Shown here piece after piece: positions 18,390 to 25,463 of a stretch of DNA of 64,000 bases. A model generated the notes under the pieces. The model made no database searches. It was not told the origin of the DNA and worked only from the letters and a program-made list of their open reading frames with translations. This DNA is from Acidimicrobiaceae bacterium. GTDB lineage: Bacteria; Actinomycetota; Acidimicrobiia; Acidimicrobiales; RAAP-2. Location of the stretch: positions 35,285 through 99,284 of the forward strand of contig PLKM01000039.1 of NCBI GenBank assembly GCA_003141095.1. The letters are read 5' to 3'. Both the position numbers and the translations under genes were made by a program. Positions within the stretch are counted from its first letter, which is position 1. Every line of letters starts with the position of its first letter.

Positions 18390-18959
18390 GTGAGCAGCGA
18401 CCGAGCGAAGGGTTTCGAGCGTACGTACTCGATCCACTTTCGCGATATAGCTTCGTACGTAGTTCGCCGAGTGCCGAGAGACGAAGTCGAGGTTGTTGTC
18501 GTCAACGTTTTCGTTGTCGCCTGGCGGAGATTCGAGAGGGTGCCGGCGCCACCCGACGACCGGCTCTGGCTCTTTGGTCTTGCACGACGTTGTGTCGCCG
18601 AGCACACTCGCAGTCGTGCCCGTCAGGGTCGCCTTCGTGCGAAACTCGCCGACGAGGAGTTTTCGGTCGAGGCAACGTCATCCTCGGCCCCAGACCCACG
18701 CCATGACCTCGTGCTCACGGCCATGGCCAAATTGAAGACCCTCGATCGTGAGTGTCTCCAGCTCGTGCTCTGGGACGAACTCTCCCACGCCGACGCGGCG
18801 GCCGTACTGGGCTGCAGCTTGAACGCCTTTGAACTTCGCTACCAGCGCGCTCGCAACCGTGTTCGCGACGACATTGACGTGTCGGTCGATGCCTCGACAA
18901 GACCAACGCCCTCTGCGCTCACTGATGTTCCACTTACCCCGAAGGAAGCGACGGCATGA
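18390..18959 (+). CDS. RNA polymerase sigma factor, sigma-70/ECF family
   Basis: Region 2 (NVFVVAWRRFERVPAPPDDRLWLFGLARRCVAEHTRSRAR) and region 4 (LKTLDRECLQLVLWDELSHADAAAVLGCSLNAFELRYQRARNRV). Confidence 0.85.
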   Translation: MSSDRAKGFERTYSIHFRDIASYVVRRVPRDEVEVVVVNVFVVAWRRFERVPAPPDDRLWLFGLARRCVAEHTRSRARQGRLRAKLADEEFSVEATSSSAPDPRHDLVLTAMAKLKTLDRECLQLVLWDELSHADAAAVLGCSLNAFELRYQRARNRVRDDIDVSVDASTRPTPSALTDVPLTPKEATA

Positions 18960-19978
18960 CTATGACTATCGAATCACTCATTCGTGAGGCCAATCCCGTC
19001 GCCCGTTACGAGGTTCCGTCAATTGACGCAGACTCCGCCCGTCGACTGCTCGACCGCATACTCGCCACGCCGAGTCCACGGGCCACGGTCCGGCGGCCCC
19101 GAACAGTAGTGGCGATTGCGGTCGGTGCGCTGACGGCGGTCCTGTTGACAGCCCTGGTCCTGTTCGAGATCGTGGGCCAATCGACGCCTGCGACGGCGGT
19201 CCTCTTACGCCTTTCCAACGTTGCTGCGACACTGCCGAGGATCGGGGCACCGGTGCCAGGCCAGTTCCAATACACCAATTCACTTTCATCTGATTCGGTC
19301 GAGTACGCCCAACTACTCAACCACCCTTACTTGGTGAACTATGTTTCCCAGCGCCAGATCTGGGTCGGCCCAGACGGCTCGGGGCGACTACTGCAAACCT
19401 GGTCCGACCCGACGTTTCCAACGGCCCACGACCACGTCAACTGGGTCCTCTCGGGTTCACGGTCACTGGCGCGGTTGACGACAGACCAGACCTTCGGCGC
19501 GAAGAAACTTGCCGACGGACCGACCAATCTGTGGGCCCTGCCAACCAACCCGACGAAGTTGGCGGCGTTGATCGCCCGCCGGACAATCGAGGGAGGATTG
19601 GAGGGACCGAGCGAGGACTTCGTGCAGGTCGGCGATCTCCTGCGAGAGACCGACGCGCCGCCGGCCCTTCGGGCGGCTCTCTTTCGCGTCGCCACGAAGA
19701 TTCCCGGAGTGGAGTTGCTCGGACCAACGAAGGACCACCTGGGTCGAACGGGCATCGGACTCGCCTACTCGGCGGCGTCAAGTGATCCCTCGCGGGGTTC
19801 CGAAGAGCGCTATGTGCTCATCTTCAATCCGACGACCAGCGCCCTCTTGGGTGAACAGACGGTGGCCATCGATCCCTCCACCGGGGCCTCAACGGTAACG
19901 ACGTGGACGTCGTACGTCGCTACCGCGGTCGTGAACTCGACGACCGCGGTAGCGCCCACCGCTTCGCTGGGGCCGTAG
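18956..19978 (+). CDS. CU044_5270-like single-pass membrane protein, possible sigma-factor partner
   Basis: Overlaps the ECF stop codon (ATGA, 18956-18959); cytoplasmic N-terminus, one TM segment (TVVAIAVGALTAVLLTALVLFEIVG), extracytoplasmic domain. Confidence 0.7.
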   Translation: MTMTIESLIREANPVARYEVPSIDADSARRLLDRILATPSPRATVRRPRTVVAIAVGALTAVLLTALVLFEIVGQSTPATAVLLRLSNVAATLPRIGAPVPGQFQYTNSLSSDSVEYAQLLNHPYLVNYVSQRQIWVGPDGSGRLLQTWSDPTFPTAHDHVNWVLSGSRSLARLTTDQTFGAKKLADGPTNLWALPTNPTKLAALIARRTIEGGLEGPSEDFVQVGDLLRETDAPPALRAALFRVATKIPGVELLGPTKDHLGRTGIGLAYSAASSDPSRGSEERYVLIFNPTTSALLGEQTVAIDPSTGASTVTTWTSYVATAVVNSTTAVAPTASLGP

Positions 19979-21050: not shown

Positions 21051-21824
21051 TCACGGTGAGATCTTCGTCATCTTCGCTGTTCGATTGGGAGGGCGAAACA
21101 TCGCAAAGGGGTCCGTCACCAATAGAGTTCGATCGGTGAATCGGTAGAGCGCCGCTGGTCGACCGCCCGATGAGGAGGGTGACAAGACGGCGTTGGTGGG
21201 TTCAATAATCTCTCGGCGCAAGAGGACCCTCTGCAGATTCGTCGAAGTGATCGCGTGGCCGAGGCACGCCTCATACACGGTTCTCAACTCCGCAATACTG
21301 AAGACGCCGGGCACCAATGCGTAACCCACATTGGTGTAGGTGAGTTTGGCCCGAAGACGCTCGCGGCCGGAACGAATAATCGACGCGTGATCGAATGCGG
21401 TGGGCGGAAGCTCATCGACCGCAAACCACGCCGTATCGCTCGGTACCGAGGGGTTCAGATCAGTCGACACCAGAGCAATGTAGGCGGTCGCGATTGTCCG
21501 TTCCCGCGGATCTCGTTCAACGTCGCTACGGGTCTCCAACTGCTCGAGGTATGCAACATCGGTGAGGTCAACTTTGGAGGCGAGATGGCGCCCGAGGGAT
21601 GATCCCAGCCGCTCAACGTCGCTGAGCGGCCCACCCGGCAACGCCCAAAACCCACCGAAGGGCTCTCGTGCTCTTCGCCACAAGAGTGAATGCAGCCGAC
21701 CGTCGCGGACCTGAAAGACGGCGGCGAGCACTTCATGGCGGAACCGCCCACTGAGTTCGCTCGTCTCATCACCCTCACTTGTCCGAGCGTTTGAGGATTC
21801 ATCTGAATTTTGACGAACGTCCAC
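21051..21824 (-). CDS. NrtR-like transcriptional regulator (Nudix-like domain plus C-terminal winged helix)
   Basis: VLAAVFQVRDGRLHSLLWRRAREPFGGFWALPGGPLSDVERLGSSLGRHLASKVDL (Nudix fold, degenerate box) and YTNVGYALVPGVFSIAELRTVYEACLGHAITSTNLQRVLLRREIIEPTN...GGRPAALYRF (NrtR wHTH). Divergent from nadABC. Confidence 0.85.
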   Translation of the reverse strand: MDVRQNSDESSNARTSEGDETSELSGRFRHEVLAAVFQVRDGRLHSLLWRRAREPFGGFWALPGGPLSDVERLGSSLGRHLASKVDLTDVAYLEQLETRSDVERDPRERTIATAYIALVSTDLNPSVPSDTAWFAVDELPPTAFDHASIIRSGRERLRAKLTYTNVGYALVPGVFSIAELRTVYEACLGHAITSTNLQRVLLRREIIEPTNAVLSPSSSGGRPAALYRFTDRTLLVTDPFAMFRPPNRTAKMTKISP

Positions 21825-21843
21825 GACTCATGGTAACTTAAAT

Positions 21844-21876
21844 CAGAGGTTTTCGCCTATTAGGCGAAAACCTCTG
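21844..21876. promoter_or_regulatory. Perfect 33-bp palindrome, candidate NrtR operator for nadABC
   Basis: CAGAGGTTTTCGCCTA T TAGGCGAAAACCTCTG: 16-bp arms around one central base, between the NrtR-like gene and nadA. Confidence 0.8.
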
Positions 21877-21901: not shown

Positions 21902-22948
21902 ATGGACCTGAAGTTTGCGTCGATCTACTACTCCCAGCAAGGTCAGATTTTGGAAACCACAGAGATCGGCTCGCACCATATCTCGCTTCGCGAGTGGTCC
22001 GACGAAGTGAAACGGCTCGCCAGAGAACGCGACGCCATCATCCTCGCGCACAACTATCAACGCCCCGAGATCCAAGACGTGGCTGACCATGTCGGCGATT
22101 CGCTCGCGCTTTCTCGAATCGCCGCCCAAAGCAGTGCTTCGACCATCGTTTTCGCGGGCGTCTATTTCATGGCCGAGACCGCGAAGATCCTGGCACCCGA
22201 GCGAACGGTCCTGATACCCGAACCCCGGGCTGGCTGCTCGCTCGCCGACAGCATCGACGCGGACCAGTTGCGCGAGTGGAAGTCCCAGCACCCCGGAGCC
22301 GTGGTGGTGGCCTACGTGAACACCAGCGCCGAGGTGAAGGCCGAGAGCGATCTGTGCTGCACGTCCGCGAATGCCGTGGAAATCGTGGCGGGCATACCGA
22401 GCGATCAAGAGGTTCTGTTTCTGCCCGACCAGTTCCTTGGCGCGCACGTGCAAAGAGCAACGAAGAGGGAGAATATGCATATCTGGATGGGCGAGTGCCA
22501 CGTCCACGCCGGCATAAGCCCGCAAGATCTCCGCCGCAAGGCCGCGGCCGCTCCGGAGTCCGAACTCTTCATCCACCCCGAGTGTGGATGTGCGACGCCG
22601 GCACTGTGGCTGTCGGGAACCGATGATCTTCCCGCAGAGCGGACCCACGTGCTTTCCACTGGCGGGATGCTCGAACGGGCGCGAACCACTCGCGCGCGCT
22701 CGGTGCTCGTCGCAACCGAAACCGGCATGCTGCATCAGTTGCGAAAGGCCAATCCCTCGGTGCAGTGGGAGCCGGTGAACGCGAAAGCGGAGTGCGTGTA
22801 CATGAAGATGACGACGCCGGAAGTGCTCTTGCGCTGCCTTCGCGACGGAACGACCGAAGTGGAGGTTGACGCCGAGATTGCCACACGGGCCCGTCGCGCG
22901 GTCGAAGCAATGATCGCCGTCGGCGCGTCATCACTGGGGGGCGAATGA
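21902..22948 (+). CDS. nadA: Quinolinate synthase
   Basis: [63 protein letters not shown]. Confidence 0.96.
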
Positions 22949-24585
22949 GCTTGCCACCTCCCCGGTTCCTGCCCGCAGTGAATCTCTCGTGGAACCGCGA
23001 CACCGACATTGTCATCGTCGGCACGGGAGCTGCGGGACTCAGTGCGGCGTTGGCCGCGTCAAAAATAGGTCGAAAAGTAATCTTGATCTGCAAGGGTGAT
23101 CTTCTCAGTGGTTCCACTCCCCTCGCCCAGGGTGGCCTCGCGGCAGCGATGGACCTATCGGACTCGTTGGATGCCCACGTCTCGGACACCCTCGTCGCCG
23201 CGGCGGGGCTCGCCGTTGAGTCATCAGTTCGCGAGCTGGTGACGGCCGCACCGCAAGCCGTTCGGTCGCTCTGCGGGCTCGGCGCCCGCTTCGATAATGG
23301 ACCCCTCGGCCTCGAAGGAGGCCATTCTCATCGTCGAATCGTCCACGCCGGCGGCGACGCGATCGGAGCTGAACTCCACCGGGTACTTCGCCAGGCGGTG
23401 CTTGACTCTGACGTGGAAATCCTGGAGAACACGGCGGCCATCGACGTCCTAAAGGACGCCGCCGGCGACGTGGTGGGAATCATCGCCGGGCGTGTGGGCC
23501 GCGTGAGCACTCAGCCGCTCGACACGGGTGCCATAACGGCGCGCGCGGTCGTCCTCGCGACCGGAGGCTTTGGTCAGGCGTACGCCTCATCAACGAATCC
23601 TGCAGAAGTGACCGGAGACGGACTGGGTCTCGCGGCTCGAGCCGGGGCGGAGCTCACAAACATTGAGTTCGTCCAATTTCATCCAACCGTGTTTTACGTT
23701 CCCGGTCGGCGTGGCCAATCACCCCTCATCACCGAGGCACTTCGCGGCGCGGGTGGAACCATCACCGACGTACACGGAAGATCGGTGATGCGTGGCCACC
23801 ATCCTCTGGGTGATCTCGCTCCGCGCGACGTTGTCTCGTTCACAATGCTGCAGCGCATGAATTCGAACGACGGCCCCTCGACTCATCTGTGGCTCGATGC
23901 CCGAGGAGTGGGAGCACGACGCCTGGAGGAGGAGTTCCCGACCACCGTCGAAATCTGTCGGAGTCTGGGCGTTCACCCGGCCAGTGAACCGATTCCAATC
24001 GCTCCGGGAGCCCACTACGCGTGTGGAGGCATCCGCGCGGACCTCGACGGCAACACTTCGCTGCACGGACTCTACGCGGTGGGAGAGGTCGCCTGCACCG
24101 GAGTGCACGGCGCCAATCGTTTGGCTTCGAACTCTCTGACCGAAGCCATGATCAGCGGCGCTCGACTTGGACAGCATCTCGCCGACGTCTTGTCCAGCCG
24201 CCGCGACACGTTGTCGGCGCCGCTCCTCAGCTCACCCGGCGTCGGTGCGGGAGTCGATCCGGCGACGCGCGAAGCGCTCGCCGCGCAAATGTCGAGGCAC
24301 GCCGGCGTCCTCAGGAATTGCGCCGGCTTAGGGAGCATTCTCGAAACGCTCGAAATGACTCCCGAGGCTCCGTTCGCGCCGCTGGACCTTGCGACACTCG
24401 AAGCGACCAATCTGCACACCGTTTCACTGTTGGTCTCCAGCGCGGCATCGATGCGAGAGGAGAGTCGCGGGTGCCATCGCCGAAGTGACTTTGCACAGAC
24501 CAGCGACGATTGGGCGCAACCGCTGTGCCTTCAAATCGTTGAGGGCGAGGTCGTCGCCCAGGCTGGAGCAATGGCCGACACATGA
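22945..24585 (+). CDS. nadB: L-aspartate oxidase
   Basis: [91 protein letters not shown]. Overlaps nadA by 4 bp. Confidence 0.95.
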
Positions 24586-25463
24586 ATCGAAACCTGCTCG
24601 AAACACTGAACAGAGCGGACATCGAACCACTCGAGTTGCAACGCCTTGTCGATCTCGCCTTGGCGGAGGACCTTCGATTTGGTCCCGACGTCACCAGCGA
24701 CGCAACGATTCCTAGCGACCAAGTCGCCGTGGGCGACGTGACCGCCCGAGCACGCGGCGTCGTCAGCGGGGTCCCGGTGGCACTCGTGGTCCTCGAGACG
24801 GTGGGCTTCCCCCTGTCGGGGGTCACCGTCGTTCGCAACGACGGTGACTCGGTCGAGCCCGGAAGCGTCGTTCTCGAGATTGCGGGTCCGCTACGACCGA
24901 TGCTGCTCGCCGAGCGCACCCTGTTGAACTTCATGACCCATCTGTCCGGTATCGCCACTGCAACCAACGCCTGGGCGCGCGCGCTGGAGGGGACCAACTG
25001 CAAGGTCCGTGACACCAGAAAGACGACGCCCGGACTGCGCCAACTCGAGAAGTATGCGGTCAGATGTGGCGGAGGAACTAACCACCGAATGGGACTCGGC
25101 GACGCGGCTCTCATCAAGGACAACCACATCGCGGCCGCCGGCGGCATCGTCCAAGCCGTGGCCGCCGTTCGCTCGGCCGATCCAGACATCGAGCTGGAAG
25201 TCGAGTGCGACACGCTCGAGCAGGTTCGTGAGGCTCTCAGCGCACATTGTTCGCTCATACTTCTTGACAACATGGACTTGAATGAAATCAAGTCCGCAGT
25301 CAACATCGCCCGCGAGTCGCCGGGAGTCCGACTTGAAGCCAGCGGGGGCATGGAACTCGCTGGTGCCGGCGCGGTCGCCAGGACGGGCGTGAATTTCATT
25401 GCGGTGGGGGCGCTCACCCATTCGTTCAGCGCCCTCGATTTGGGCCTCGATCTTCGCAGCTAG
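24582..25463 (+). CDS. nadC: Nicotinate-nucleotide pyrophosphorylase (carboxylating)
   Basis: LAEDLRFGPDVTSDATIP; ERTLLNFMTHLSGIATAT; VRDTRKTTPGLRQLEKYAVRCGGGTNHRMGLGDAALIKDNHI; EASGGM. Overlaps nadB by 4 bp. Confidence 0.96.
   Translation: MNRNLLETLNRADIEPLELQRLVDLALAEDLRFGPDVTSDATIPSDQVAVGDVTARARGVVSGVPVALVVLETVGFPLSGVTVVRNDGDSVEPGSVVLEIAGPLRPMLLAERTLLNFMTHLSGIATATNAWARALEGTNCKVRDTRKTTPGLRQLEKYAVRCGGGTNHRMGLGDAALIKDNHIAAAGGIVQAVAAVRSADPDIELEVECDTLEQVREALSAHCSLILLDNMDLNEIKSAVNIARESPGVRLEASGGMELAGAGAVARTGVNFIAVGALTHSFSALDLGLDLRS

Follow-up and report, generated by a model that had tools for sequence, protein, structure and literature searches.

The window analysed here is a stretch of 64,000 nucleotides from an Acidimicrobiaceae bacterium, and it contains a palindrome placed between two divergent units, nrtR (21051-21824, minus strand) and nadABC (21902/21950-25463, plus strand) (Table 1). 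The product of 21051-21824 has the domain order of NrtR proteins, with an N-terminal Nudix domain (PF00293, 27.7 bits, cut-off 21.1) and a C-terminal NrtR winged helix (PF21906, NrtR_WHD, 42.3 bits, cut-off 27), both above the Pfam cut-offs. Its score against NCBIfam NF050029, a narrow NrtR equivalog, falls below the cut-off (101 versus 400 bits) and, therefore, the protein is not filed under that model; its membership in the wider NrtR family is assigned because of the Pfam domains. The Nudix box, GPLSDVERLGSSLGRHLASKVDL, keeps the G, the first E and the R, and the REUXEE glutamates are substituted; a Nudix domain without most of its catalytic glutamates is expected to serve sensing rather than hydrolysis. 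On the other side, the nadA/nadB and nadB/nadC junctions are four-base overlaps. Translation of nadA probably starts at TTG 21950 rather than at ATG 21902, as this TTG is preceded by a Shine-Dalgarno-like AAGG (21939-21942) and followed by ACC-ACA, as in relatives. An NrtR-like regulator beside nadABC had been proposed by an earlier sequence-only reading of this DNA, and the Pfam and NCBIfam cut-offs confirmed both identities.

Table 1. Features of the nrtR-nadABC region, in window positions
Feature	Position	Strand	Remarks
nrtR	21051..21824	-	Nudix and NrtR winged-helix domains; starts with GTG at 21824; message probably leaderless
nadA, quinolinate synthase	21902..22948	+	Pfam/NCBIfam; likelier start TTG 21950
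nadB, L-aspartate oxidase	22945..24585	+	TIGR00551, 463 bits (cut-off 452.75)
nadC, nicotinate-nucleotide diphosphorylase	24582..25463	+	TIGR00078, 300 bits (cut-off 198.4)
Predicted nadA -35, TTGACG	21810..21815	+	Complement of nrtR codons 4-5 (Arg-Gln)
Predicted nrtR -10, TACCAT	21830..21835	-	5 nt before the GTG start
Predicted nadA -10, TAACTT (TANNNT)	21834..21839	+	9 nt before the operator core
Full 33-bp palindrome	21844..21876		Outer five pairs specific to the source genome
Putative NrtR operator core, GTTTTCGCCTATTAGGCGAAAAC	21849..21871		Conservation in relatives and match to the mycobacterial operator

The palindrome reads CAGAGGTTTTCGCCTA-T-TAGGCGAAAACCTCTG, with 16-bp arms that pair without a mismatch around a centre of one base, and its sequence and coordinates are exactly those reported before. 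Its arms are the longest among the perfect inverted repeats of the window, and the chance expectation for arms of at least 16 bp with a gap of 0-8, computed from base composition only, is ~3e-4 per 64 kb and 0.011 per 2.51-Mb genome. The genome-wide motif search that had been suggested showed the palindrome to be single in the source genome, with no second copy in the 2.51 Mb even when up to 3 mismatches were allowed. As to its description as a perfect 33-bp element, the symmetry is exact and exceeds that of every relative, but the size of the functional unit was overstated, since relatives keep the inner 23 bp only; the five extra perfect outer pairs of the source genome have a chance probability of ~1e-3 and are without comparative support. 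A wider regulon in the source genome was considered and rejected: of the two next-best sites, one precedes an infB-like gene (L023) and the other falls within a GGDEF-type gene (L046); neither has the inner CT...AG bases, and both were judged to be chance matches. The window holds a second perfect inverted repeat at 19918-19954, with 15-bp arms and a 7-nt loop, close to the 3' end of ORF 18956-19978 (CU044_5270 family).

The inner 23 bp of the palindrome have the form GTTTTCGC-N7-GCGAAAAC. In Mycobacterium smegmatis, the operator of MsNrtR (MSMEG_3198) is a 23-bp palindrome, GTTTTCGA-N7-TCGAAAAC, located between nrtR and nadABC and tested by EMSA (PMC6800001). The two sequences differ in one symmetric base beside the spacer, A/T in M. 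smegmatis and C/G here, in addition to the five outer pairs. Within the genus of the source organism this symmetric position can be C/G, A/T or mixed, and one genome (G005) carries GTTTTCGACTTAGAGTCGAAAAC, which is exactly the mycobacterial form. The two systems also share the divergent arrangement of nrtR and nadABC, the half-site, the N7 spacing, a homologous repressor and a single intergenic operator, whereas nrtR in the window starts with a GTG further from the operator. Not every NAD-gene operator of the NrtR family is of this kind, as that of Streptococcus, ATA-N-TTTA-N3-TAAAA-N2-ATA, is unrelated in sequence (quoted in PMC6800001).

The phylogenetic footprinting called for by the sequence-only reading found the site accompanying nrtR in relatives. 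Among 37 genomes of the genus, source genome included, a full nrtR is present in 9, and all 9 have nadA with the site in between, two of these sites differing by one mismatch. A broader set of 80 actinobacterial nrtR loci, picked by protein only from named genomes, ranged from Acidimicrobiaceae peat metagenomes to Blastococcus, Nocardiopsis, Kribbella and Thermoleophilia; a nadA match is found in 71 of these loci, in line with the genomic link of NrtR to NAD metabolism, and a site matching at least 11 of 14 lies upstream of nrtR in 78, the best match elsewhere in the same loci being 8-12. The half-sites of Blastococcus are weak (10-12 of 14) and follow a looser rule. Across 298 genomes of the phylum, the site occurs in 11 of the 12 with a close NrtR and in 8 of the 286 others (Fisher p 2.6e-14, with the cut-off for "close" chosen after the list was seen), and in each of those 11 it lies within 200 bp of nrtR. 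These results support the earlier proposal of an operator, but the restriction of that proposal to this lineage was too narrow, as the range of the operator extends over the Actinobacteria sampled.

Alignment of 46 dereplicated loci gave the conserved motif GTTTTCG(C/A)CTNNNAG(T/G)CGAAAAC, in which GTTT and AAAC are almost invariant and conservation ends 11 bases to either side of the centre; the consensus GTTTTCGNCTNNNAGNCGAAAAC could be used for finding the NrtR regulon across Actinobacteria. A perfect palindrome at this position could also be read as an RNA element, either a 5'-terminal hairpin of the nadA message, stabilising or attenuating it, or a terminator. A transcript from ~21846 would form a stem of 13 pairs (z -2.29), and a terminator-like match is present on the minus strand, but this "terminator" would stop transcription ahead of nrtR and has no proper T run. 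The Rfam search returned no family match, with one miRNA family far below its cut-off. Covariation is also absent among the 46 sites: pairing inside the 33 bp exceeds the product of column frequencies by at most 0.07, as expected from independent columns, and the outer stem pairs, 13-16 from the centre, match at 0.22-0.37 against an expected 0.26-0.31, which is chance level. Bases are thus conserved and pairing is not, as expected of a site read by a protein and not of an RNA stem. A hairpin, a riboswitch and a terminator were therefore rejected, without covariation or an Rfam family behind them, and an RNA function for the palindrome is very unlikely.

A protein site might still belong to a transcription factor encoded elsewhere, since binding of the 21051-21824 product to this DNA is argued by homology. 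The distribution of the site speaks against this, as it tracks nrtR and not nadA: in Thermoleophilia-type genomes without nadA it is kept beside nrtR, with a transporter gene divergent, while a genome of the same genus that has nadA and no nrtR (G003) is missing the site. We regard another factor as very improbable. A palindrome arisen by chance or brought by a mobile element would fit a symmetry stronger than in the relatives, but a frequency of 3e-4 per window and conservation in place among relatives leave this explanation with practically no weight, and conservation already refutes a chance origin.

The nadA promoter proposed by the sequence-only reading, TTGACG and TAACTT with an 18-bp spacer, is present as described, and it is conserved at fixed spacing in relatives. 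Of the 12 nearest named relatives (L077-L088), 10 have TTGAC in the position and at the spacing seen in the window, as does L093, whereas L088 has TTGAC-TANNNT with slightly longer spacing. The window and 11 relatives thus share TTGAC-N18-TANNNT with its end 9 nt ahead of the core. A simple scan for the sigma-70 consensus returned no promoter and, therefore, the promoter claim rests on conservation and not on a consensus match. In the opposite direction, the window and its close relatives have TANNAT followed, after 5 nt, by the GTG or ATG start of nrtR; of the 46 dereplicated loci, 25 contain the pattern TANNAT-N4-9-[GA]TG, with distances of 5-8 nt, where shuffled sequences gave 0.19, and the nrtR message is probably leaderless. 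The nadA -10 and the predicted nrtR -10 have a TA in common, and this overlap of the two predicted promoters suggests that one operator serves both genes. In mycobacterial-type loci the start of nrtR lies directly beside the operator and, therefore, the overlapping geometry is not universal. We tentatively propose, as a possibility somewhat short of even odds, that the two promoters are interlocked, with a shared TA, the nadA -35 inside nrtR codons 4-5, a leaderless nrtR and polymerase able to leave in one direction at a time. If true, synthesis of the repressor and of NAD would compete for the same polymerase besides sharing one repressor. This geometry is the sole part of the arrangement that we did not find described in the literature consulted, and it offers a testable refinement of one-operator control over both genes.

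On the protein side, the best sequence match of solved structure is Bacteroides AraR (PDB 5bs6, 5deq; E 1.3e-33, about full length), a member of the NrtR family that regulates arabinose use and not NAD synthesis (PMC4666351). Shewanella oneidensis NrtR (SoNrtR, PDB 3gz5/3gz6) likewise combines Nudix and winged-helix domains and matches over about the full length (family profile E 3.4e-27), but its sequence is remote. The 21051-21824 product shares 53% identity with a mycobacterial-type NrtR whose operator is exactly the published one, and the spacing among the DNA-contact residues fits in this mycobacterial-type protein. DNA contact in MsNrtR involves D167, T169, N170, R173, K179 and R196 (PMC6800001). 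Four of the six are identical in the window, where T169, N170, R173 and R196 correspond to T195, N196, R199 and R222 at a constant offset of 26, while D167 and K179, needed for binding in MsNrtR, correspond to T193 and E205. The change at these two positions, as aligned, is the main reservation about the operator reading.

Taken together, the comparative evidence indicates, with a probability of roughly 93%, that the palindrome serves as the one operator of NrtR, the divergently encoded repressor, which would be released by ADP-ribose and would repress both nadABC and its own gene. MsNrtR represses its own gene 8-10 fold and nadABC 2-6 fold, and 50 mM ADP-ribose releases it from the operator (PMC6800001). 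By analogy, we infer that NrtR of the source organism binds the site, represses nadABC and its own gene and is released by ADP-ribose; the positions of the start sites are likewise predictions. An NrtR dimer would recognise the two inverted GTTTTCG half-sites, and the protein bound at 21849-21871 would cover the predicted nadA start and initially transcribed region, ~+3 to +25, as well as the -35 region predicted for nrtR; nadABC and nrtR would in this way be repressed jointly. NAD turnover would raise ADP-ribose, which is predicted, by homology to the M. smegmatis protein, to occupy the Nudix domain; NrtR loaded with it would then leave the DNA and de novo NAD synthesis would be switched on. 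The palindrome is a clean new example of an operator type already described and tested in mycobacteria. With it, the range of an NAD switch studied by experiment comes to include an uncultured Acidimicrobiaceae lineage from peatland.

Within the genus, matches to nadA and nadC are absent in 27 of the 37 genomes, and so is nrtR, except for a fragment at a contig edge in G025. Nearly all of these 27 are also without a nicotinate/nicotinamide phosphoribosyltransferase, the exceptions being G019, G033, G034 and G035, and several of the genomes without nadA and nadC have a completeness of at least 95%. In the Blastococcus loci (L096-L136) degeneration or a shift of the right half-site is a consistent feature, as in GTCAGAAACC, which suggests an asymmetric operator in that genus. 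In Thermoleophilia-type metagenome genomes (L142, L149, L152 and L153) the operator and nrtR are divergent not from nadA but from a gene for an MFS transporter or for a BMP/PnrA-like substrate-binding lipoprotein, and these genes are candidates for NAD-precursor uptake under the control of NrtR.
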